Positions 2,760 to 18,782 of a DNA stretch of 64,000 nucleotides are shown one piece after another; positions within the stretch are counted from its first letter, which is position 1; every line of letters begins with the position of its first letter. Under the pieces are notes generated by a model. It did no database searches and was not told where the DNA came from. It saw nothing but the letters and a program-made list of their open reading frames with translations. The stretch covers positions 2,108,001 through 2,172,000 of the forward strand of contig NZ_PHQX01000001.1 of NCBI RefSeq assembly GCF_002803515.1, read 5' to 3'. This stretch comes from Stenotrophomonas lactitubi (GTDB lineage: Bacteria > Pseudomonadota > Gammaproteobacteria > Xanthomonadales > Xanthomonadaceae). A program made the translations under genes and the position numbers.

Positions 2760-2868
2760 TCTCCAGCCCACATGCCGTGCTGCGCGTGCGACATAAGCAA
2801 ACTGCATCAGCCAGCACCTCGACCGTTCCTACAATGGCCCCATCCCCCTGTCCTTCGAGATGCTGCCG

Positions 2869-4383
2869 ATGCGCGTCGCGCTTTCCATGTTGCTGCTGGC
2901 CTCGGCCCTGAGCGCCTGCTCACCCGCTTCCGCTCCGGTGCCGACGGCGCAGGCCGCCTCCACCGCCCCGGCCTCTGCCATCGCCTGGCGCCAGGGCGAT
3001 GTGGATGATGCCTTCAACGAAGCCGCCGAGAGTGGCAAGCCGGTGCTGCTGTACTGGGGCGCGGTGTGGTGCCCGCCGTGCAACCAGCTCAAGGCCGGGC
3101 TGTTCAAGGATCCGGCCTTCATCGCCCTGACCGGCAAATTCGTGCCGGTGTACCTGGACGGCGACGAGGAAGGCGCGCAGGCGTGGGGCGAACGCTTCGG
3201 CGTGCGCGGCTATCCGACCCTGATCGTGCTCGACCCGCAGCGCAACGAAATCACCCGCGTCGCCGGCGGCAACGACGCGGCCGAACTGACCCGTGCACTG
3301 ACCGTCGCCGCCAGCCGCCGCAGCGCCGTCGCCGAGACTCTGGCCACCGCACTGGCGACGCCGGCCAAGCTTGGTGCCGAAGACTGGCAGGTGCTGGGCG
3401 ACTACGGCTGGGAGGTCGATGCCAACCGCCTGGCCGGCAAGCGCAGCACGCAGGACGTGCTGCAGCAACTTGCCAAGGCCGCACCCGAACCTGCGCTGCA
3501 GCGTCGCTTCGCGCTGCTCGCCTTGGCTACAGCCGGGAAACCGACGACAGCGCCCACCCAGGTACGTGAGCTGTTGCAGGCCGTGCTGGCGCAGCCGGCG
3601 GAAGTACGTCGCAACCGCGAGCTGCTGGGCTATGCCGGCGCCGGGCTGGTCAAGCAGGCCAGCGCCGGTCCGGCCAGCAGCAATGCCCTCGGTCAGCAGC
3701 TGCTGGTCGCGCTGGAACGTGCCGATGCCGCGCGCGGTGATCGTGCTGACGATGCCTTGTCACGCGCGCTGACCGAGCTGGTGCTGGCCCGCCAGCAGCA
3801 GCCCGAAGGCGCGCTGCCGGCAGCCCTGGTTGAGCGGGTGAAGCAGCGCGTGACCGCCGCCGATGCCGCCGCCACGGACGCACACGCGCGCCAGGCCACC
3901 ATCAGCAGTGCGGTCTACGCGCTGCGTCAGGTCGACGACGATGCGGGCGCCGAGGCCTTGCTGCTGGCAGAGCTGAAGCGCAGCGAGCAGCCTTACTACT
4001 ACATGCCGGAGCTGGCCGAACTGGCCGAGCAGCGCGGTGATACCGCCGGCGCTCTGGAGTGGTTGAAGCGTGCCTACGAAGGCGCGCAGGGGCCTGCCAC
4101 GCGCGTGCAGTGGGGCGTGCTGTACGTGGAAGGCCTGCTGCGGCTGGCGCCCGATGATGCAGCGCGCATCGAGCAGGCCACCGAGGCGTTGATCGCCGAG
4201 CTGGACAAGCAGCCGTCCGGCTACCACCAGCGCACGCGTCAGCGCTTCGAACGGCTGGCCGGACAGCTGCAGGCGTGGAGTGCGAAGCACAAGGGTGCGG
4301 AGACGCTGGCACGGTTGCAGCAGCGGATGCAGACCGCCTGTGGCGATCAGGTTGATAGCGCGTGCAAGGATTGGTTGAGCTGA
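2869..4383 (+). CDS. Lipid-anchored thioredoxin-fold protein with long helical C-terminus
   Basis: About 504 residues from the ATG at 2869; an in-frame ATG at 2860 adds three residues. The signal ends in a lipobox (LSAC), so it is probably a lipoprotein facing the periplasm. A thioredoxin domain covers roughly residues 40-150, with the redox motif WCPPC and the cis-proline strand RGYPTLIVLD. The remaining 350 residues are alanine-rich, helical and TPR-like (LAELAEQRGDTAGALEWLKRAYEG). It is probably a disulfide reductase or isomerase-type protein acting with a protein partner. The large C-terminal domain makes it much longer than normal thioredoxins. Substrate unknown. Confidence 0.8.
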   Translation: MRVALSMLLLASALSACSPASAPVPTAQAASTAPASAIAWRQGDVDDAFNEAAESGKPVLLYWGAVWCPPCNQLKAGLFKDPAFIALTGKFVPVYLDGDEEGAQAWGERFGVRGYPTLIVLDPQRNEITRVAGGNDAAELTRALTVAASRRSAVAETLATALATPAKLGAEDWQVLGDYGWEVDANRLAGKRSTQDVLQQLAKAAPEPALQRRFALLALATAGKPTTAPTQVRELLQAVLAQPAEVRRNRELLGYAGAGLVKQASAGPASSNALGQQLLVALERADAARGDRADDALSRALTELVLARQQQPEGALPAALVERVKQRVTAADAAATDAHARQATISSAVYALRQVDDDAGAEALLLAELKRSEQPYYYMPELAELAEQRGDTAGALEWLKRAYEGAQGPATRVQWGVLYVEGLLRLAPDDAARIEQATEALIAELDKQPSGYHQRTRQRFERLAGQLQAWSAKHKGAETLARLQQRMQTACGDQVDSACKDWLS

Positions 4384-4665: not shown

Positions 4666-5291
<626 letters not shown>

Positions 5292-5295
<4 letters not shown>

Positions 5296-9191: not shown

Positions 9192-9239
9192 CCCCTTCCG
9201 GGGCATGACCACCGGCACGCTTCCGTGCGCATTGTGTAA

Positions 9240-9262
9240 TGTTATAACACTCGAATTCGAGT
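9240..9262. promoter_or_regulatory. Two abutting perfect palindromes upstream of the TonB receptor
   Basis: TGTTATAACA (9240-9249) and ACTCGAATTCGAGT (9249-9262) share one base and are both perfect. They lie between the end of fabR and the MntR-like box. The first resembles a shortened Zur-type half arrangement, but the match is too weak to assign. They may be a second operator of the receptor gene or a structured transcript end. Confidence 0.35.
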
Positions 9263-9295
9263 AAAGACCACGGTCCCGCCGCGAGCTGAAACGGT

Positions 9296-9315
9296 AATAT
9301 AGCAATTGCTATATT
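9296..9315. promoter_or_regulatory. MntR-like box upstream of the TonB receptor
   Basis: AATATAGCAATTGCTATATT is a perfect 20-bp palindrome, 72 bp before the receptor start codon. Its ATATAGC-N4-GCTATAT frame is the same as the palindrome in front of mntH. It also resembles the E. coli MntR consensus, which has ATAGC/GCTAT cores. Binding by the MntR encoded at 12148-12624 is inferred. Confidence 0.7.
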
Positions 9316-9387
9316 GATGACCTTCTGCTTTCATGTGCGCCAGCCAGGTCGCCCTCGCCGCCCTCCCTCCCCAAGGACGACGCCCTC

Positions 9388-11547
9388 ATGCGCATTGCTG
9401 CCTCCCTTCTTCGCCGGCTGCCGCTGGCTGCCGGTATCGCCGCCGCCCTGCCACTGGCCGCAGTCGCTGCACCGCCCTCTCCTACCGAGCTGGACCGGGT
9501 GCAGGTGAAAGTCAGCACCGCCACCCGCAGCGAACGCCTGCTGTCGGACGTACCGATCCGCACCGAAGTACTGCGCAAGGAAGACATCGCACTGCGCGCA
9601 GCCACCGATTTTTCTCGCGCGGTGGAGCTGATCAACGGCCTGCGGGTGGAAAGCAACTGCCAGAACTGCAACACCAGCGAGGTGCAGCTGCTGGGCCTTC
9701 CCGGTGCCTACAACCAGTTGCTGTTTGATGGCATTCCACTGCTGTCCACGCTGGGCAGCGTGTACGGGCTGGAACAGATTCCCGCCGGCTTCGTCGACCG
9801 CATCGAAGTGGTCAAGGGCGGTGGTTCGTCGCTGTACGGGCCGGGCGCGGTGGCCGGTGTCATCAATCTGATTCCGCCGCTGCCTGCACGCAGCGGCGGC
9901 CATGTGCAGGCCGGCGTGGATGTGCTGAAGGGCACGCCGCAGAAAAACGCCGACGTCCGTCTGGATCTGGTCGCCAGCGAAGCCGACGCCGGACTGTCGG
10001 TGATCGCCCAGCGCAACTGGAACAGCGGCATCGACTACAACGGCGACGGCTATACCGAGATCACCCGCAAGAACCTCAAGGTGGGTGGCCTACAGGCCTG
10101 GTATGCGCCGAATCCGGGCACGCGCCTGCGGCTGGACCTGCAGGTGACCGATGAGAGCCGTCGCGGTGGCAACCGCCTCGACCAGCCCGAACACCTGGCC
10201 AACATCGCCGAATCGCTGGATACGAACTACCGTCGCGGCAGCCTGTCATGGGACCAGGAAGTGAACAGCGACGTCGACTTCCGTCTGGCCTACGCCTTCG
10301 CTGACATCGACCGCGACAGCTTCTATGGCGGTCTTGGCGATGTGGTCACCGATCCGTCGGCGCCCGGCTACGATCCTTCGCAGCTGGACCCGAACGTGCC
10401 CGGCAGTGCCGCATCACGCTCGTGGCGCCAGTACGGGCGCACCCACAACCCGCTGCAGTACATCGACAGCCAGTTGAACTGGCGGTTGGGTGCACACACG
10501 CTCGCGTTCGGCGTGCAGTACAAGCATGAGGGCCTGCGTGACGACAACCGCGATGGCGCCGGCCAGCGCCTGGCCGTGCTCGAGGATGCGACGTTCCACA
10601 ACCTCGGCGCGTTCGTGCAGGACGAATGGAGCGTACGCGATGACATCGACCTGGTGCTGGGTGCGCGCGTGGACAAGAGTTCGGAACTGGACAGCGCCGT
10701 GTTCTCGCCGCGTATTGCCCTCGCCTGGCAGGCGACTCCCCGGCTGAAATGGCGTGCGGGCATCGCCACCGGCTTCCGTGCGCCGGAAATCTTCGTCGAG
10801 GATGTCCACGTCGATACCCTCGGTGGCGAACAGGTGCGCGTGCGCAACACCCGTGGCCTGAAGGAGGAGCGCGCGCTGACCACCCTGTTCGGATTCGACT
10901 GGCGCTCCGACCCGGCCGACCCGGTATGGAGCTGGGATGCCACTGCGTCCTACGCACGCATCCGTGACACCTTCGCGCTGGGCGAGATCCAGCGCGGCGA
11001 TGATGGCCAGCTGACACAGCTGCGCTACAACGCGTCCGGCTCGAACGTACTGGGCATGGAAACCAACGTCGGCTGGCAGCCCTCACCGCAATGGCGGCTG
11101 ACTGCCGGTGCGTCGTGGTACCGCTCGCAGTTCCGCGAGCCGCAACGCATCTTCGATGACACCGCCGACGGAGGCGATACGGTGATCGACAGCCGCGACT
11201 ACCTGAAGACGCCGCGCTGGACCGGCGTGGCCCAGCTCAGCTGGATGCCGGCCGAACCCTGGGAGACGTTCCTGGCGCTGCGCCACACCGGATCGATGCC
11301 GGTGCTCAACAACCGGCTGGGCGAACTGCACCGCACCCGCGCGTTCCTGGTCACCGATCTCGGCGCGCGCTGGCATCGCCATCTGGGCGCGCAGGCACAG
11401 CAGGAAGTGTCGGTGGCGGCCGGGGTCAAGAACGTGTTCGACCAACGGCAGAAGGATCTGGAAAGCGGCGCGCTGCGCGACAGCGACTACGTGTACGGTC
11501 CGCGTTTCGCCCGCTCGTGGTACGTGAACCTGCGTTATGCGTTCTAG
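9388..11547 (+). CDS. TonB-dependent receptor, candidate manganese importer
   Basis: 719 residues. Signal peptide at the N-terminus (MRIAASLLRRLPLAAGIAAALP...AVAA). The plug domain includes VLRKEDIALRAATDFSRAVELINGLRVESNCQNCNTSEVQLLGLPG, then DGIPLL, then IPAGFVDRIEVVKGGGSSLYGPGAVAGVINLI. The barrel ends in an aromatic-terminated strand (YVNLRYAF). A CQNC pair sits inside the plug. The gene overlaps a thioredoxin-like gene by 11 bp and has an MntR-type operator, so outer-membrane manganese uptake is the leading idea. The ligand itself is not visible in the sequence. Confidence 0.88.
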   Translation: MRIAASLLRRLPLAAGIAAALPLAAVAAPPSPTELDRVQVKVSTATRSERLLSDVPIRTEVLRKEDIALRAATDFSRAVELINGLRVESNCQNCNTSEVQLLGLPGAYNQLLFDGIPLLSTLGSVYGLEQIPAGFVDRIEVVKGGGSSLYGPGAVAGVINLIPPLPARSGGHVQAGVDVLKGTPQKNADVRLDLVASEADAGLSVIAQRNWNSGIDYNGDGYTEITRKNLKVGGLQAWYAPNPGTRLRLDLQVTDESRRGGNRLDQPEHLANIAESLDTNYRRGSLSWDQEVNSDVDFRLAYAFADIDRDSFYGGLGDVVTDPSAPGYDPSQLDPNVPGSAASRSWRQYGRTHNPLQYIDSQLNWRLGAHTLAFGVQYKHEGLRDDNRDGAGQRLAVLEDATFHNLGAFVQDEWSVRDDIDLVLGARVDKSSELDSAVFSPRIALAWQATPRLKWRAGIATGFRAPEIFVEDVHVDTLGGEQVRVRNTRGLKEERALTTLFGFDWRSDPADPVWSWDATASYARIRDTFALGEIQRGDDGQLTQLRYNASGSNVLGMETNVGWQPSPQWRLTAGASWYRSQFREPQRIFDDTADGGDTVIDSRDYLKTPRWTGVAQLSWMPAEPWETFLALRHTGSMPVLNNRLGELHRTRAFLVTDLGARWHRHLGAQAQQEVSVAAGVKNVFDQRQKDLESGALRDSDYVYGPRFARSWYVNLRYAF

Positions 11548-12085
11548 CTGGCTGCCCGCACTGCTGCTGGCACTGGCATGGCCTGCCGCGGCGGCCGACC
11601 TGCACGCGCAGGTCTCCGCGTCGCTGATGCGGCCCGAGCCACGTTCCCTGCGGCCGGTGCAGTGGTCGCCACCGCCGAAGCTGATCGCACTGTACTTCGG
11701 TGCCGACTGGTGCGCGCCCTGCCACGCCTTCGTGCCGACCCTGCGCGGCGTGCGCGACGCGCTGCGCGAGGCCGGCGCCGATACCGAAGTGGTGTATGTC
11801 AGCCTGGATGAAAGCGAGGCGGCGTTGCGGCGCTACATGCAGCTGCAGGACATGCCGTGGCCGGTGCTGGACCCGCGTCGCGCGAAGCGCATGCCGTCAC
11901 TGCAGGCATTGGCGGGCCCGGCCCCGCCCAACCTGGTGCTGATCGATGCGCAGGGCACGGTGCTGGCCAATGGCTGGCAGGGGCGGCGCTACAGCGGGCT
12001 GCAACCGGTATTGCAGGAATGGCGGAAGCAGGCGTGTGCGCAACAGCAGGCGCGCTGCCCCACTGGCGGCGTTCAACTCCGGTAG
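11537..12085 (+). CDS. Secreted thioredoxin-like protein (TlpA/ResA type)
   Basis: 182 residues with a signal peptide (LPALLLALAWPAAAA). The thioredoxin fold has the active-site motif FGADWCAPCHAFVPTLR and the cis-proline region GPAPPNLVLIDAQG. It starts inside the last codons of the TonB receptor, so the two are co-translated. A periplasmic thiol-disulfide protein coupled to this receptor could act on the CQNC cysteine pair of the receptor plug or on a metal-chelating partner. That link is inference from adjacency. Confidence 0.82.
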   Translation: MRSSWLPALLLALAWPAAAADLHAQVSASLMRPEPRSLRPVQWSPPPKLIALYFGADWCAPCHAFVPTLRGVRDALREAGADTEVVYVSLDESEAALRRYMQLQDMPWPVLDPRRAKRMPSLQALAGPAPPNLVLIDAQGTVLANGWQGRRYSGLQPVLQEWRKQACAQQQARCPTGGVQLR

Positions 12086-12151
12086 CGCCGGGCCATGCCC
12101 GGCGAAATACGTAATGCGGCAACGCGCCCGCCGGGCATGGCCCGGCGCTAC
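12082..12151. repeat. SMAG dimer between the thioredoxin-like gene and mntR
   Basis: GTAGCGCCGGGCCATGCCCGGC followed by its inverted copy ending GCTACC. It overlaps the last codon of the upstream gene and the stop region of mntR, so it sits exactly between two convergent genes, where it may serve as a two-way transcript end. Confidence 0.75.
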
Positions 12152-12624
12152 CGTTCGGCGGAACCGCCCTCGGCCTTGCGTACGAATTCGTCGAACAGAG
12201 CCAGTGTCTGTTCACTGACGTGGTGCTCGATGCCTTCGGCATCACGCCGCGCGGTATCCGGGTCCACGCCCAGCGCCAGCAGGAAGCGTTCCACGGTCTG
12301 GTGGCGCTGGCGGCTGGCATGGGCCAACGCCTCGCCCTCCGGGGTCAGGAACACGCCGCGGTATGGGCGCTGCACCACCCAACCGTCACGGGCCAGCCGG
12401 CGCAGCATCTTCGCCACGGTCGGCTGGGCCACGCCGAGACGGGTAGCGATGTCGACCTGGCGGGCCTCGCCGCCGTCGGCCAACAGGTCGGAGATCAGCT
12501 CGACATAGTCCTCCACCAGTTCCATCCGGTGTGCCTCGCGCACTTGCCGGAAGCTCTCGACCTGGCGCTCGGCCTCGATCAAGGGGGTGCTTTTCAGCGA
12601 TGTCGAATCGTCCGTCTTGCCCAC
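12148..12624 (-). CDS. mntR: Manganese-responsive DtxR-family regulator MntR
   Basis: 158 residues with a GTG start at 12624. The winged helix reads [62 protein letters not shown]. The metal-dimerisation region follows ([34 protein letters not shown]), with the E-G-x-E-H-H motif of MntR/DtxR proteins. It lacks the SH3-like tail of DtxR, as MntR does. With bound manganese it should repress mntH and the TonB receptor operon, both of which carry the same palindrome. Confidence 0.9.
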
Positions 12625-12714
12625 GCGTGTGCCTGTCCTGCAGTTGTCATCGGGTGCGAACCTGAATTCTGGACCAGTGACGCAGTAAAGACGATTGTTT
12701 CACATTGCTATGCG

Positions 12715-12732
12715 ATATAGCAGTGGCTATAT
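12715..12732. promoter_or_regulatory. MntR-like box upstream of mntH
   Basis: ATATAGCAGTGGCTATAT: 7-bp perfect arms ATATAGC/GCTATAT around a 4-bp centre. It ends 8 bp before the mntH start and 90 bp before the divergent mntR start. The arms and spacing are identical to the box at 9296-9315. Confidence 0.72.
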
Positions 12733-12740
12733 TGGCAGTC

Positions 12741-14072
12741 ATGAACACCGTCGCACCCACCGATTCTGCCGCCTCCACTCCGGCCAGCCTGGGTGCGCTC
12801 AACGCTTCGATTGCCGTACCTGACAAAGGCCATTGGTGGTTCCGGCTGCTGGCCTTCCTTGGCCCGGGCTACATGGTGTCGGTCGGTTACATGGACCCGG
12901 GCAACTGGGCCACCGATCTGGCAGGCGGCTCGCGCTTCGGCTACCTGCTGCTGTCGGTCATCCTGATCTCCAACCTGATGGCAGTGATCCTGCAGGCGTT
13001 GTCGGCACGGCTGGGCATCGCCACCGGCATGGACCTGGCGCAGGCCTGCCGTGCGCGCTACCCCAAGCCGGTGAACCTGGCGCTGTGGGCGCTGTGCGAA
13101 GCGGCGATCATCGCCTGCGACCTGGCCGAAGTGATCGGCACGGCCATTGCCTTGAAACTGTTGTTCGACCTGCCGTTGCTGTGGGGCGCGGTGATCACCG
13201 CGCTGGACACGCTGCTGGTGCTGCTGCTGATGAACCGTGGTTTCCGCGCGCTGGAAGCCTTCGTGATCGCGCTGCTGCTGGTGATCTTCGGCTGCTTCAT
13301 GGTGCAGATCGCGCTGGCCGCGCCGCCGGTGATGCAGGTGCTGGGCGGTTTCATTCCGCGCGCGCAGGTGGTCACGGATCCGCATGCGCTGTACATCGCC
13401 ATCGGCATCATCGGTGCCACGGTGATGCCGCACAACCTGTACCTGCACTCTTCCATCGTGCAGACCCGTGCCTATCCACGCACCGATGAAGGCCGTCGCA
13501 GCGCGCTGCGCTGGGCAGTCACCGACAGCACCGTTGCCCTGACCCTGGCGCTGTTCATCAACGCCAGCATCCTGATCCTGGCGGCGTCGGTGTTCCATGC
13601 CAATGGCCGCTTCGATGTGGAAGACATCGAGCAGGCGCACCAGTTGCTGGCGCCGATGCTGGGCGTGGGCCTTGCCTCGACATTGTTCGCCGTGGCGCTG
13701 CTTGCTTCCGGCTTGAACTCCACCGTGACGGCGACACTGGCCGGGCAGATCGTGATGGAAGGGTTCCTGCGCCTGCGCCTGCCGCCGTGGCTGCGGCGCT
13801 TGATCACCCGCGCGCTGGCCATCATCCCCGTGGTGGTGGTGATCATGCTGTTCGGCGACCAGGGCGCGGTAAAGCTGCTGGTGCTGAGCCAGGTGGTGCT
13901 GTCGATGCAGCTGCCGTTCGCGATCATCCCGCTGGTGCGGATCGTCACCGACAAGGTGACGATGGGCGCGCTGGTGGCGCCGCGCTGGCTGGGCGGCATC
14001 GCCTGGGTGATCGCGCTGGTGATCGTGGTGCTGAACGTGAAGCTGCTGGTGGATACGTTCGCTGGCGGTTGA
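12741..14072 (+). CDS. mntH: Divalent metal cation transporter MntH (Nramp)
   Basis: 443 residues, ATG at 12741. Nramp signatures are clear: [23 protein letters not shown], containing the DPGN metal-binding motif, and [16 protein letters not shown] with the MPHN motif of helix 6. Eleven membrane helices are apparent. It imports Mn(II) with protons across the inner membrane. It is divergent from mntR with an MntR-like operator between, and completes an uptake path if the TonB receptor at 9388 carries Mn across the outer membrane. Confidence 0.96.
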
Positions 14073-14195: not shown

Positions 14196-14522
14196 CTACA
14201 GGAACTCCGCGATTGCCGCTTCGATCTGCTGCGGCGACTGGAAACCCGGCATGCGCATGCGCTCGTCACCGTCCAGGAACAGCGACAGCGTGGGGGTCTG
14301 CCGCAGGCCCAGCTCGCGGAAGAACGCCTCGCCCACCACCTCCAGCTGCACCCGCAGCAGGGTCGTGCCCTGCCCTGCAGTGCCGCTGGCCACCCGCTGC
14401 AGCGACATGTCCAGCATCCGGCAACCCGGGCACTGGTCCTTGTGGAAGTCCACCAGCACGCGCGGATGGTCGGCCAGCAACTGCTGGAACTGCTCAGGCG
14501 TGGTGGCGTCGATGATCTGCAT
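14196..14522 (-). CDS. Thioredoxin-family protein of the nrd operon
   Basis: 108 residues, ATG at 14522. Single thioredoxin domain with the redox motif DFHKDQCPGCRMLD and the cis-proline strand LRQTPTLSLFLDG. No signal, so cytoplasmic. Its start overlaps the end of the flavodoxin gene by 29 bp. As the last gene of the nrdA-nrdB-flavodoxin cluster, it is a good candidate for the dithiol donor that re-reduces the large RNR subunit, the role played by NrdH or thioredoxin elsewhere. Confidence 0.85.
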   Translation of the reverse strand: MQIIDATTPEQFQQLLADHPRVLVDFHKDQCPGCRMLDMSLQRVASGTAGQGTTLLRVQLEVVGEAFFRELGLRQTPTLSLFLDGDERMRMPGFQSPQQIEAAIAEFL

Positions 14523-15036
14523 CGGTGGTACTCCAGTAATGATCCAGGACCGCGTCGGTCCAGCTGTTGATGGCCGTGGCATGCCGACGGCCATGTGGCA
14601 TCTGTTCGATCTCCAGCGGCGGATAGCCGCTGTGGAAATAGCGGATCAGCCGGTGCACCGCACCGCAGTAGTACTCCTGCCCCCACTGCGTTTCGCCCGT
14701 ACCGAACACCGCCACCTGGCGCGGTCGCTGGCCGCGTTCGGCGATACCTGCTACCCACGCCTTCATCTCCGACGGCGTGCGCCCGGCGTTGTCGGTCCAG
14801 CAACCCAGCAGCACCAGGTCGGCCTCGTCCACCGGCAGCGGCGGGCACTGGCGCGGGTCGTCGGCGTCCTGCCAGTGCACGGCGTGGCCTGTGGCCCGGC
14901 AACGCTCGGCGATGTGGCGGCCGAGCTCGCGGGTGTTGCCACTGAGCGACGCCACCACGATCAGGATGCGCAGCGCCGGGCCGCGCTCAGAGGTCGTCGA
15001 AGCCGTTGTCGACGTTGGTCTTCTTGTAGCTTGCAT
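14494..15036 (-). CDS. Flavodoxin-like protein of the nrd operon
   Basis: 180 residues from the ATG at 15036; a start inside the 50-bp overlap with nrdB is likely needed, and the flavodoxin core begins ALRILIVVASLSGNTRELGRHIA. The phosphate loop SLSGNTREL, the LVLLGCWTDNAGRTPSEMKAW segment and AVFGTGETQWGQEYYCGAVHRL are flavin-binding loops of short-chain flavodoxins. In class Ib systems NrdI, also a flavodoxin, activates the Mn cofactor of NrdF. Here the flavodoxin may serve cofactor assembly or repair for NrdB; this is inference. Confidence 0.82.
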   Translation of the reverse strand: MQATRRPTSTTASTTSERGPALRILIVVASLSGNTRELGRHIAERCRATGHAVHWQDADDPRQCPPLPVDEADLVLLGCWTDNAGRTPSEMKAWVAGIAERGQRPRQVAVFGTGETQWGQEYYCGAVHRLIRYFHSGYPPLEIEQMPHGRRHATAINSWTDAVLDHYWSTTDADHRRHHA

Positions 15037-16027
15037 TGCGCATCTCGAAGAAGTCGGTCTTGGTCTCGGTGAAGTTGTCGGCGTAGGCCTTGATCCACGG
15101 CATCACGTTGTCGGTGGTGTCGCTGTACAGGCGCTCGATGCCGAGCATGCCGGCCATCTTGTTGGCGCGGTACTTCACGTAGCGCACCATCTCATCCACG
15201 TCGATACCGTCGATGCCGTCCAGCACCTCCGCCGACCATTGGGTTTCCAGTTCGATGGCATGTTCGAACGACTGGTGCACGTAGGCGGTCAGCTCGTTGG
15301 TCTGCAGCTCCGGGTTCTCGCCGATGATGGCGCGGATCAGCTCGCTGATGAACTTGGTGTGGGCCAGTTCGTCACGGTTGATGAAGCTGATGATCTTGCC
15401 GGTGCCGTTCATGCGGTTCTGCCGCACCATGTTGTAGAAGTACGCGAAACCGGAATAGAAGTTGATGCCTTCCAGGATCGAGGACTGGATCAGCGACTTC
15501 AGCAGGGTTTCGGCGGTCTTCTCGCGCATGAAATCGTCATACGCCCCCATGATCGGCGCGTTGCGCTTGATGATGGTCGGGTGGGTGCGGGCGATCTCGA
15601 AGATGCGGTTCTGGTTGGGAAGATCGGTGATCGAGGCCAGCACGTAGCTGTAGCTCTCGTTGTGGATCACTTCCTGCTGACCGATGATCGCCGCGTTGGC
15701 GTGCGCGGCTGGGTCGGTGATGTATTCGGCGACGTTGTAGATGAAGCGCGTCTGCGGCGAATCCAGCGTGGCCAGCAGGCCGATGATGGAATCGTAGGCA
15801 TTCTTCTCGCGCGCATTGAGCTCGCCGTACTGGCGTGCATCCACCTTCATGTCCACCTCGTCGGGGATCCAGAAGTTGGTCGACAGCTCCTTGTAGGCGC
15901 GATAGAACGACGGGTAGGGAATGTCGTTCCAGTTCAGGATGCCGCTGGTGCGGCCGTTGATGATGCCGGTGCTGCGGTTGGGGTGGCGCGGTTCGAGGAT
16001 CTTGATGCGGTCGAGGGGGGTTGCCAT
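14987..16027 (-). CDS. nrdB: Class I ribonucleotide reductase small subunit
   Basis: 346 residues, ATG at 16027. Metal ligands are recognisable: Asp in LLATLDSPQTR, Glu and His in QQEVIHNESY, Glu in SSILEGINFYSG, then Glu and His in INRDELAHTKF. The tyrosine of EVIHNESY is at the spacing of the radical tyrosine Y122 of E. coli R2. The tail (TETKTDFFEMRNASYKK...GFDDL) carries features shared with NrdF-type subunits. It houses the dimetal-radical cofactor needed for deoxyribonucleotide synthesis. It overlaps the flavodoxin gene and follows nrdA. Confidence 0.94.
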   Translation of the reverse strand: MATPLDRIKILEPRHPNRSTGIINGRTSGILNWNDIPYPSFYRAYKELSTNFWIPDEVDMKVDARQYGELNAREKNAYDSIIGLLATLDSPQTRFIYNVAEYITDPAAHANAAIIGQQEVIHNESYSYVLASITDLPNQNRIFEIARTHPTIIKRNAPIMGAYDDFMREKTAETLLKSLIQSSILEGINFYSGFAYFYNMVRQNRMNGTGKIISFINRDELAHTKFISELIRAIIGENPELQTNELTAYVHQSFEHAIELETQWSAEVLDGIDGIDVDEMVRYVKYRANKMAGMLGIERLYSDTTDNVMPWIKAYADNFTETKTDFFEMRNASYKKTNVDNGFDDL

Positions 16028-16043
16028 GGTCGTTCCTGCAGAG

Positions 16044-16116
16044 GTAGCGCCGGGCCATGCCCGGCGGAATTTACGGTGGCCGCGCGGTGCGCTCGCCGGG
16101 CATGGCCCGGCGCTAC
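16044..16116. repeat. SMAG dimer inside the nrdA-nrdB gap
   Basis: GTAGCGCCGGGCCATGCCCGGC and an inverted copy ending GCTACC lie between the nrdA stop (16136) and the nrdB start (16027), the only spacer inside the nrd operon. As a strong hairpin in the transcript it could set the ratio of the two subunits or protect the upstream message. Confidence 0.75.
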
Positions 16117-16135
16117 CGCGGCTGGGGCGCAGCGG

Positions 16136-18514
16136 TCAGCTCGAGCACCACTCGCATTCGCTGATGTCGATGTCGTTGGAGCGCACGTAGTAGGTGGTCT
16201 TCAGCCCTTCCCGCCAGGCACTCAGGTGCAGCTCCAGCAGCGTGCTGGCGCGGATCGTGCTCGGCACGTAGAGGTTGAAGCTGATCGACTGGTCCACATG
16301 GCGCTGGCGGCGCGCGTTCTGCCGCACACTGGCGAACTGGTCGACCTTGTAGGCGCCCTTCTCGTAGTACGGCCAGGTATCCAGCGACAGCCCGGGTGCA
16401 GCCACCGGCCGCCGGAAGTCCTTCTTTTCCTCGTAGTAGAACGCGCTGTAGATCGGATCGATCGACGCGGTGGAACCCGCGATCTGTGCGGTGCTCATGT
16501 TCGGTGCCACTGCCAGCAGCCAGCCGTTGCGCAGGCCGCTGCTCGCCACCTCGCGCGCAAGACTTTCCCAGGCAGCGCCGCTGTAATCGCGGTCACGGAA
16601 ATAGTTGCCGTTGTGCCAGTCGCTGCCGGCGAACATCGGGTAGCTGCCCTTCTCCTTGGCCAGCTGCGCGCTGGCCTGGATGGTCAGGAAGTTGATGCGT
16701 TCGAACAGGCGATCGGACAGTTCCTCGGCCTCGGGCGATTCCCAGTGGATCGCCTGCTGTGCCAGCAGGTGGTGCCAGCCGAACGTGCCCAGGCCGATGG
16801 CGCGGTACTTGCGGTTGGTGATGGTGGCCTGCGGCACCGGCAGCGCATTGAGATCGATCACGTTGTCGAGCATGCGCACCTGGATCGGAATCAACCGCTC
16901 CAGCACATCCGTGGCCAGCAGATCCTCGGGGGCGGTGATGGCACGGCCGAGGTTGATCGATGACAGGTTGCAGACCACGAAGTCACCGGCACGACGGGTG
17001 GTGACGATCTGGTCGCCGCTGACGATCTCCTGGATCATCCGCGTCGGGCTCATGTTCTGCAGGATCTCGGTGCACAGGTTGCTGGAATAGACCATGCCCG
17101 CGTGCTTGTTCGGGTTCTTCCGGTTCACTTCGTCGCGGTAGAACAGGAACGGGTTACCGGTTTCCAGCTGGCTGAGCATGATCCGCTTGAACAGGTCGAT
17201 CGCCTTCACCGTGCGGCGGCTGATGCGTTCGTCTGCCACCAGTTCGGCGTAGCGGTCGCGGAAGCTGCCCTGCCCGCGCTTCTCGTCGTAGAAGTCCTGC
17301 AGGTACCAGCCCTTGGCCTGCTTCACCTCGTGCGGATCGAACAGGTACCAGTCGGCACGGCGCTCGACGGCCTCCATGAACAGATCGGGCACGCAGATCG
17401 CGGTGAACACATCGTGCGCGCGCAGGCGCTGGTCGCCGTTGTTCAGGCGCAGGTCCATGAAGGCTTCGATGTCGCGATGCCAGATGTCCAGGTACACCGC
17501 CACCGCGCCCTTGCGCTGGCCGAGCTGGTCGACCGACACCGCGGTGTTGTTGAGCTGCTTGATCCACGGCACGACGCCGCCGGACGAGTTGGGCACGCCG
17601 CGGATCGGCGCACCACTGCTGCGCACGTACCCCAGGTACGCACCCACACCGCCGCCGTGCTTGGACACGCGGGCAATATCGGTGTTGGAGTCATAGATGC
17701 CCTGCAGGCTGTCATCGACGGTATCGATGAAGCAGCTCGACAGCTGGCCGCCGACCTTGCCGGCGTTGGCCAGGGTCGGCGTGGCCACCGTCATGTACAG
17801 GTTGGACAGTGCCCAGTAAGCCTCGCCCACCAGCTGCATGCGCCGCACGCGGCCGTTCTCACCCGGCCCGCCCTCGTTCTGCATCAGGTACAGGGCGATG
17901 GTCAGCCAGCGTTCCTGCGGCAGTTCATACACCTCGCGGCTGCGATCGGTGGCCAGATAGCGCGTGGCCAGCAGGTACAGGCCGTTGTAGGCGAACAGAC
18001 GATCGCGCTCGGGGTCGATCATCTCGCCGGCCTGCTGCAGTTCTTCCTTCGAATAGCAGCGCAGGATGTCGTTGCTGTAGATGCCGCGGTCGGCCAGGCT
18101 TTCCTGCAGGCCCACGTAGGAGCCGTATTTCAGGCTGACATCGTAGAAGCGATTGCGGCTGGCACGCTTGTACAGCCGGCGCAGGTACAGGCGTGCGGCA
18201 AACTGTTCCCACTCGGGCGCGACAAGATCGACGCGCGATTCCGCTTCGCGGATCAGCAGATCCACCAGATCATCGGCGCTGATGCTGGGCTTGCGCTCGA
18301 CCATCGCCAGCACCACGCGGCGGTAGTCGGCCACATCCAGCTGTGGCAGCTCGGCATGGATCGTGTCGATGCTGCGCAGCAGGCGTGCCGCATCGTATGG
18401 CAGGCGACGATTGCCGGCTTCCTTGGTGATCCAGGTCGGCACGCGCTCGCCGCTGGCGCGCATGGCGTCGCCGGCGCCGGCCAGGTCGGCCACGCGGAAG
18501 GTACTGTCGGTCAT
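16136..18514 (-). CDS. nrdA: Class I ribonucleotide reductase large subunit
   Basis: 792 residues; the ATG at 18514 (MTDSTFRVADL) is preferred, with longer non-conserved extensions possible. The N-terminal part resembles an ATP-cone (VPTWITKEAGNRRLPYDAARLLRSIDTI). Catalytic cysteines are seen in QLSSCFIDTV, SSNLCTEI and VVCNLSSINLGRA, and the tail ends SECEWCSS with a CxxC redox pair. It reduces NDPs to dNDPs with NrdB. It heads the nrdA-nrdB-flavodoxin-thioredoxin operon, with candidate NrdR boxes about 270 bp upstream. Confidence 0.95.
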   Translation of the reverse strand: MTDSTFRVADLAGAGDAMRASGERVPTWITKEAGNRRLPYDAARLLRSIDTIHAELPQLDVADYRRVVLAMVERKPSISADDLVDLLIREAESRVDLVAPEWEQFAARLYLRRLYKRASRNRFYDVSLKYGSYVGLQESLADRGIYSNDILRCYSKEELQQAGEMIDPERDRLFAYNGLYLLATRYLATDRSREVYELPQERWLTIALYLMQNEGGPGENGRVRRMQLVGEAYWALSNLYMTVATPTLANAGKVGGQLSSCFIDTVDDSLQGIYDSNTDIARVSKHGGGVGAYLGYVRSSGAPIRGVPNSSGGVVPWIKQLNNTAVSVDQLGQRKGAVAVYLDIWHRDIEAFMDLRLNNGDQRLRAHDVFTAICVPDLFMEAVERRADWYLFDPHEVKQAKGWYLQDFYDEKRGQGSFRDRYAELVADERISRRTVKAIDLFKRIMLSQLETGNPFLFYRDEVNRKNPNKHAGMVYSSNLCTEILQNMSPTRMIQEIVSGDQIVTTRRAGDFVVCNLSSINLGRAITAPEDLLATDVLERLIPIQVRMLDNVIDLNALPVPQATITNRKYRAIGLGTFGWHHLLAQQAIHWESPEAEELSDRLFERINFLTIQASAQLAKEKGSYPMFAGSDWHNGNYFRDRDYSGAAWESLAREVASSGLRNGWLLAVAPNMSTAQIAGSTASIDPIYSAFYYEEKKDFRRPVAAPGLSLDTWPYYEKGAYKVDQFASVRQNARRQRHVDQSISFNLYVPSTIRASTLLELHLSAWREGLKTTYYVRSNDIDISECEWCSS

Positions 18515-18782
18515 GGTGGTGGAACTCCAGGCTCGTACGCGCGTCGGCGCCCGATGCCATGGCGGCCCTGCACGCGATACCGGCGCGCGGAGCGAACGGG
18601 TGAAGTGCCAGGGTGCAGGAACGTAGGTCGTCGGCATCTGCCTGCGCCTGCGGCCGGTATCCGGGCCGTGGGGGCGACCTGCGTCCGCACGATGGCGGCC
18701 GCGTCGACACGGCAAGCCTTCAGGGGCGGGCCGCGGGACGTTTGCTGCATGTCCGGCGGCGGCGGCTGACCGGGAGTGACAG
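18515..18782. other. Long leader region upstream of nrdA
   Basis: About 270 bp with no convincing gene; the open frames here are high-GC artefacts. It lies between the candidate NrdR boxes and the nrdA start, so it would be an unusually long 5' untranslated region if transcription begins near the boxes. No riboswitch fold was recognised. Confidence 0.35.

Follow-up and report, generated by a model that had tools for sequence, protein, structure and literature searches.

A CQNC-type TonB-dependent receptor and its thioredoxin-fold partner in Stenotrophomonas lactitubi: a probable MntR-controlled uptake module for manganese, perhaps zinc

A 64,000-nucleotide stretch of the Stenotrophomonas lactitubi genome (contig NZ_PHQX01000001.1, positions 2,108,001 to 2,172,000; hereafter the window) carries, next to mntR and mntH, a cassette of two overlapping genes that encode a TonB-dependent receptor with a CQNC motif and a thioredoxin-fold protein, pTFP. 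The receptor is likely to import a scarce metal, manganese or perhaps zinc. Taken as a whole, the explanation that we favour, with modest confidence, is an MntR-controlled manganese (perhaps zinc) receptor that is kept reduced by pTFP and may be under additional control by Zur. To our knowledge, little is known of how manganese passes the outer membrane, and only a few receptors have been put forward; MnoT of Burkholderia is said to be one, and is likened to the present receptor by description only.

The module itself is not a new discovery, as it was published in May 2026 for S. maltophilia Sm18 (orf2357-orf2358; PMC13217887); statements on this paper refer throughout to the parts of its text that were available. 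The Sm18 module shares with the window cassette the receptor family, the CQNC and CAPC motifs, the MntR box, the mntR-mntH adjacency and an mntP box, and the paper also reports a modelled tetrahedral manganese site and receptor-pTFP synteny across Lysobacterales, Sphingomonadales and Opitutales. Because it covers the module, the boxes and the reductase idea, the main claims of a preliminary description of this DNA, the redox claim included, were already in print. Within the open-licence literature searched, CQNC and TonB occurred together only in this paper. Its available parts mention neither a second promoter element nor, outside the genus, any SitABC, TroA, ZigA or MntR neighbours, of which its Fig. 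6D may show some. What goes beyond those parts and the open-licence literature searched is the cross-genus metal-gene neighbours, the thioredoxin counts and the second promoter element.

The features of the cassette and its surroundings are as follows.
9235..9249, strand not assigned: Zur-like element TGTAATGTTATAACA, one mismatch to TGTTAT-N3-ATAACA, putative Zur site
9286..9315, + strand: sigma70-like promoter CTGAAA-18-TATATT, overlapping the receptor box, from a consensus scan only
9297..9314, strand not assigned: MntR box of the receptor-thioredoxin pair, from the palindrome scan
9388..11547, + strand: CQNC-type TonB-dependent receptor, 719 amino acids (PF07715 plug 68 bits, PF00593 barrel 120 bits)
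9658..9669, + strand: codons of the plug CQNC, residues 91-94, from residue conservation
10033..10059, + strand: DxNGDGYTE loop, residues 216-224, putatively extracellular loop L2 by strand count in the model (DSSP)
10798..10809, + strand: E-D-V-H (residues 471-474), placed in loop L7 by counting strands; may supply ligands alongside CQNC
11537..12085, + strand: thioredoxin-fold protein pTFP, 182 amino acids, predicted periplasmic (N-terminus judged by eye; PF13905 49 bits)
11711..11722, + strand: codons of the active-site-type CAPC of pTFP, residues 59-62, from alignment
12148..12624, - strand: mntR (NF008273 248 bits, cut-off 153)
12715..12732, strand not assigned: MntR box of mntH, from the palindrome scan
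12741..14072, + strand: mntH, NRAMP manganese importer (NF001923 646 bits, cut-off 430)

The NF008273 and NF001923 scores confirm the names mntR and mntH given in the preliminary description, and the coordinates bear out the 11-bp overlap that it noted between the receptor 3' end (11547) and the pTFP start (11537). Its placement of mntH behind a palindrome also stood, with the likely start codon corrected to 12741. Named S. maltophilia records have their genes in the same order and match the receptor at 86-93%. Receptor and pTFP co-occur in an identical set of 33 of 91 congeneric genomes. In two relatives without the cassette (L141 and L142), about 100 bp separate a fabR-like gene from mntR and a one-mismatch mntH box is retained, so the cassette is cleanly absent there; in a third (L143), MntR is present and the neighbours differ.

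MntR operators and metal-gene neighbours

The palindrome at 9297-9314, ATATAGCAATTGCTATAT, extends by one base per flank to a perfect 20-bp palindrome (9296-9315), and that of mntH at 12715-12732 is ATATAGCAGTGGCTATAT. Scanning the window at up to three mismatches returned these two sites only (shuffle mean 0.15; at least two matches in 3 of 100 shuffles), in agreement with the preliminary description, which had noticed no others. The same scan of the whole genome returned 15 places, namely two perfect, one with one mismatch (C1:4169588) and 12 with three mismatches; since the reversed control pattern gave 25 places, the 12 are chance-like and uninformative. The genome thus holds only two perfect copies, and the third near-copy lies outside the window, before a gene identified by eye as MntP, whose leader matches the manganese riboswitch RF00080 (46.8 bits, gathering score 45). 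A 14-bp perfect palindrome, ACTCGAATTCGAGT (9250-9263), was considered as a second operator and rejected, since other promoters do not have it.

The receptor promoter therefore contains an MntR-type palindrome, which places the cassette in the MntR regulon as defined by such sites. In Sm18, three MntR boxes were reported, at mntH, receptor-pTFP and mntP; the receptor reporter was silenced by 80 nM manganese, and deletion of mntR derepressed it with a residual manganese effect (PMC13217887). The link between MntR and the receptor, drawn in the preliminary description from the palindromes, is borne out by these reporters and by MntR neighbours in independent loci.

For the neighbourhoods, 77 named loci were taken from 80 of 205 confirmed matches. 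They were divided into 48 inner loci, in which CQNC is followed by N or G and then T, and 29 outer loci of the wider CQNC-NF group, at a profile score of 690 that was set after the scores had been seen; L091, whose receptor lies in two frames and was left as found, was added to the inner loci and excluded from residue counts. Within 3.5 kb of the receptor, a gene of the MntR family is present in 31 of the 48 inner loci and in 2 of the 29 outer ones. As 16 of the 31 are Stenotrophomonas, independent support comes from 5 Luteimonas, 7 Sphingomonas/Caulobacteraceae-type and 3 Opitutaceae loci, and the MntR proteins of the four inner loci tested outside Stenotrophomonas (L066, L070, L080, L082) all scored above the NF008273 cut-off. 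With a looser box rule (core within one mismatch and at least 6 of 7 arm pairs), an MntR-type box was found upstream of the receptor in 27/48 inner and 0/29 outer loci. Matches to this rule numbered 28 in the upstream stretches of the 77 loci and 19 elsewhere in 1.14 Mb, the latter comprising 15 mntH boxes, two just before mntR (L077, L080) and two others. The two at the mntR start are TTGTAGC-N4-GCTACAT palindromes (L077 3734-3751, L080 5483-5500) and may reflect autoregulation. The idea that the outer CQNC-NF group also consists of manganese receptors was rejected, with a DtxR-family neighbour in 2/29 loci, both below the MntR cut-off, and a box in none; its contexts, judged by eye, are mixed (ExbB/D, FeoB, small CxxC proteins).

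Other metal genes adjoin the receptor as well. A SitA/YfeA-type binding protein follows it in L069 (404 bits to YfeA) and L072 (431 bits), with His, His, Glu and Asp at what we take to be the ligand columns; L069 also has two ABC-3 permeases, L072 has more ABC genes (by eye), and L091 has a homologous binding protein. In L084 the binding protein is of TroA type (218 bits; His, His, His, Asp), with homologues in L085-L087. These independent metal-gene neighbours support a metal-uptake role better than before. At L084 12431-13894, downstream of the CQNC receptor, an ABC-3 metal permease is fused to a DtxR metal-binding domain, possibly forming a metal-sensing transporter.

At the level of genomes, order-wide draws of 299 gave 9 with the receptor and 35 with MntR, and MntR was present in 9/9 receptor genomes, 8 of which belong to one genus; this comparison assumes that the two draws contain the identical 299 genomes. 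Among chosen receptor genomes, 16/22 have MntR. The MntR matches in the L088 and L091 genomes contain a stop codon.

The CQNC plug motif and its thioredoxin-fold partner

The receptor has the plug and 22-strand barrel of a TonB-dependent receptor, with PF07715 and PF00593 above their cut-offs and the strands counted by eye. Its AlphaFold2 model has a mean per-residue confidence (pLDDT) of 88.9, and DSSP puts CQNC in a plug loop; the CQNC pair noted earlier in the plug was thus found at residues 91-94. C91 is present in 76/76 loci and 107/107 aligned rows (window included), C94 in 75/76 loci and 106/107 rows, and E471 and H474 in 76/76 loci and 107/107 rows, while D216 and D220 are invariant in the conservation alignment. 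Variants among the loci are CQNS in L118 and CMNC in L095. Among 120 relatives listed of 1290, 108 have CQNC, 6 have CQSC and 6 have no CxxC match, five of these being short or partial and one (P0109) 692 amino acids long. On this pattern of conservation, CQNC and the L7 EDxH motif may form one common metal site.

The nearest solved folds found by Foldseek are generic receptors, with Cir at the top, and catecholate, B12 and copper receptors are all among the fold neighbours. OprC, a copper receptor that reportedly binds metal through a plug Cys and barrel residues, is a TonB receptor like that of the window and matched at 17% identity; an OprC-type identity was rejected, since the receptor scored 26.8 bits with TIGR01778, far below the cut-off of 472.45.

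A CXXC thioredoxin-fold gene lies directly downstream of the CQNC receptor gene, so the cassette is a CQNC receptor/pTFP module in the sense used here. W58, C59, P61 and C62 are invariant across 59 aligned pTFPs. In model and profile, pTFP resembles tryparedoxins and ResA-type proteins; it shares the fold and the W-C-x-P-C site with the tryparedoxin/TlpA/ResA type, and it falls below the cut-off of the ResA model NF002854 (30.3 vs 170 bits). Only 132 among 1761 candidates are pTFP relatives at an E value of 1e-5 or better. A thioredoxin-type gene follows the receptor in 43/48 inner and 6/29 outer loci, counted anywhere in the locus at a profile threshold of 80 bits for inner and 30 bits for outer loci, compared with 7 of 917 control open reading frames, which are stop-to-stop frames and in many cases probably not genes.

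The view that the partner is confined to pTFP relatives was rejected, because the pTFP profile missed the Opitutales partners; the three tested (L084, L088, L090) belong to PF13899, outside the pTFP family. These partners look like a replacement by another thioredoxin subfamily, and such a replacement supports a functional pairing of receptor and thioredoxin. A role of pTFP as a reductase of CQNC is plausible, and pTFP was already proposed as a possible CQNC disulfide reductase in the Discussion of PMC13217887. The redox switch of the preliminary description is accordingly still plausible and has lost its novelty.

In seven Aminicenantes loci (L103, L107-L109, L111, L112, L118), a small protein of 92-107 amino acids with CPAC, CVAC or CPVC is encoded just before the CQNC-NF receptor; the protein of L109, the only one tested, gave no Pfam match.

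A second promoter element and the question of zinc

Upstream of the MntR box, a Zur-like element is kept in all 30 Stenotrophomonas promoters examined (30 of 33 receptor-positive genomes), as TGTAATGTTATAACA in 28 and TGTGATGTTATAACA (TGTGAT) in 2. It starts 62-73 bp before the MntR box, and the intervening spacer diverges. The divergent named locus L059 has TGTAATATTATAATA, with two mismatches. In many proteobacteria the Zur core is GTTA-N5-TAAC, and Caulobacter sites have that form, as far as the available parts of PMC4176598 go. The window element instead has GTAA-N5-TAAC. The GTTA core occurs in 0/30 Stenotrophomonas promoters, the left half-site always deviating, which counts against Zur there; so does the position of the element, which leaves 37 bp between its end and the -35-like hexamer, an awkward distance for a simple repressor.

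The picture differs in relatives of the Luteimonas group. Exact GTTA-N5-TAAC lies upstream of the receptor in L063, L064 and L067, which have no MntR box, and the density of exact cores is 3 in 48,993 upstream positions vs 6 in 1,132,913 elsewhere. In L064 the exact core precedes a MerC gene, which in turn precedes the receptor. A ZigA-like gene is found beside the receptor in L064 and L065, together with MntR in L066, L068 and L083, and also in L092. In all, four receptors of the Luteimonas group that lack an MntR box have the exact Zur-type core, a neighbouring ZigA-like gene or the two together. In the genomes of L063 and L064, MntR is encoded at another place, which also counts against Zur in Stenotrophomonas. 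The exact sites resemble those of the Zur-regulated TonB receptors ZnuK, ZnuL and ZnuM of Caulobacter (PMC4176598), which are likened by regulation, not by sequence, and in whose description the word 'thioredoxin' is absent. A tree was built from 42 of the 77 loci, leaving out L091, 11 of 16 rows from Stenotrophomonas and 23 of 29 from the outer group. In it, the Luteimonas-group loci that lack a box diverge around those of MntR type, several forks having moderate support, so the regulator of the receptor was probably exchanged within this group.

In the S. lactitubi genome, an exact core lies between divergent genes for MerC and a ZigA-like GTPase (584 bits, cut-off 600). The Zur-like scan at up to two mismatches gave 20 places vs 7 for the reversed control, and the loci of 15 were examined. 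Such matches were rejected as proof: besides the window's own, two fit their genes (the MerC/ZigA-like pair and a TonB receptor) and the rest are chance-like, and at the sole perfect match (C1:2341297) no recognisable zinc gene was seen. This second TonB receptor (by eye; C1:1978579-1980780, L144) starts 40 bp behind the exact core TGTTATCCTGTAACA, which makes it a candidate zinc receptor. No ZnuA-type protein was found in this genome at E 0.001.

Cargo, mechanism and rival explanations

Manganese is the likeliest cargo, and zinc is a serious second. In the favoured explanation, MntR-Mn would repress the cassette along with mntH, as the boxes found here indicate and the published reporters show. 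When manganese falls, the receptor would be made and, pulled on by TonB, would let in the metal itself or a small complex of it. The metal site would be formed by plug Cys91 and Cys94 with Glu471, Asp472 and His474 of L7, conserved residues that presumably coordinate the metal. Oxidised C91-C94 would be re-reduced by pTFP, restoring metal binding, as also proposed in PMC13217887. MntH would then carry manganese inward, a place that a SitA/YfeA-type ABC importer takes in two relatives, and the second conserved element may add zinc control via Zur.

Several observations weigh against this explanation. By the looser rule 21/48 inner loci have no box, 17/48 have no MntR gene within 3.5 kb, and the DtxR-family neighbours of outer loci L095 and L120 are below the MntR cut-off. 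MntR was not found in 6/22 receptor genomes (L065, L067, L084, L089, L090, L101), two of which are metagenome-assembled, and the TroA-type pairing of L084 does not point to manganese alone. A thioredoxin neighbour was not found in 5/48 inner and 23/29 outer loci, three of the latter (L099, L102, L118) having less than 1 kb of downstream sequence; CQNC is kept in the 5 inner and in most of the 23 outer loci, which speaks against a strict pairing of receptor and thioredoxin. A Cys2 site is better suited to Zn(II) or Cu(I) than to Mn(II), for which a dithiolate is unusual. In Sm18, the receptor reporter was on only if manganese and iron were both limiting, and deletion of the receptor or pTFP gave no growth phenotype (PMC13217887).

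The preliminary description had taken the receptor for a manganese importer. The MntR link and the Mn/Fe-type importers in L069 and L072 agree with this; its manganese-only form is weakened by the second, Zur-like element and the four Luteimonas-group relatives with Zur-type cores and/or a ZigA-like neighbour, and manganese itself stays a candidate cargo. A manganese-only importer, with a second promoter element unrelated to zinc, is possible but on the unlikely side: the MntR boxes and neighbours, the adjoining SitA/YfeA-type importers and a reporter switched off at 80 nM manganese (PMC13217887) speak for it, against the element in 30/30 promoters, the exact cores in three loci, the ZigA-like genes in six and the unusual dithiolate. 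We consider it quite unlikely that the receptor chiefly serves zinc, with MntR control reflecting zinc sparing or a cambialistic metal need at low manganese. The Zur-type cores and ZigA-like or MerC neighbours of Luteimonas-group loci, a Cys2-Glu-His set that would be zinc-like and the lack of a detected ZnuA-family protein in the S. lactitubi genome would suit such a receptor; the MntR gene near 31/48 inner loci and the Mn/Fe type of the L069 and L072 importers do not, and the available parts of PMC13217887 do not have zinc as one of the metals that were varied.

That the cargo is a metal chelate or other organic ligand, with MntR or Zur control as a mere starvation signal, is unlikely. The fold neighbours span catecholate, B12 and copper receptors and the published expression requires joint iron and manganese limitation (PMC13217887), but the invariant C91, E471 and H474 and near-invariant C94 resemble direct metal ligands, and metallophore genes were not noticed beside the receptor, no search aimed at such genes having been made. 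It is doubtful that the CQNC pair forms a structural disulfide and that pTFP assists folding by shuffling disulfides during assembly, with no gating. CQNC is retained where an adjacent thioredoxin gene was not found, and motifs in plug loops can have a structural role; against this, the C-x2-C spacing is of the redox-active rather than the structural type, pTFP resembles reductase-type thioredoxins, and E471 and H474 are co-conserved.

Other genes of the neighbourhood include nrdA, nrdB, a ribonucleotide reductase-associated flavodoxin and a thioredoxin at 14196-18715 (- strand), convergent to mntH. The flavodoxin scores 159 bits with TIGR01754 (cut-off 163.8) and 238 bits with NF006747 (cut-off 104). 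Homologues of flavodoxin and nrdB are present in 16/16 loci with mntH and, in Luteimonas RC10 (L068), also close to the receptor pair, and these neighbours suggest a manganese-linked ribonucleotide reductase. The same neighbourhood contains a gene for an Fe/Mn superoxide dismutase at 4669-5295 (+ strand; 290 bits with the MnSOD model, cut-off 363) and, 5 kb upstream of the receptor at 2860-4383 (+ strand), one for a 507-amino-acid protein with a WCPPC thioredoxin-like stretch (by eye).

In summary, the MntR-controlled manganese (perhaps zinc) receptor may represent a wider family. Tentatively, this would be a family of thiol-gated receptors for scarce divalent metals under MntR or Zur, under both through a single promoter in Stenotrophomonas, with CQNC and the L7 EDxH motif as the site and a dedicated but exchangeable reductase keeping it reduced. 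The Zur-like element is a candidate for the MntR-independent response left unexplained in PMC13217887, a paper in which the word Zur does not occur. If a receptor shared by manganese and zinc control does have its own reductase, metal starvation would be tied to the redox state of the periplasm.

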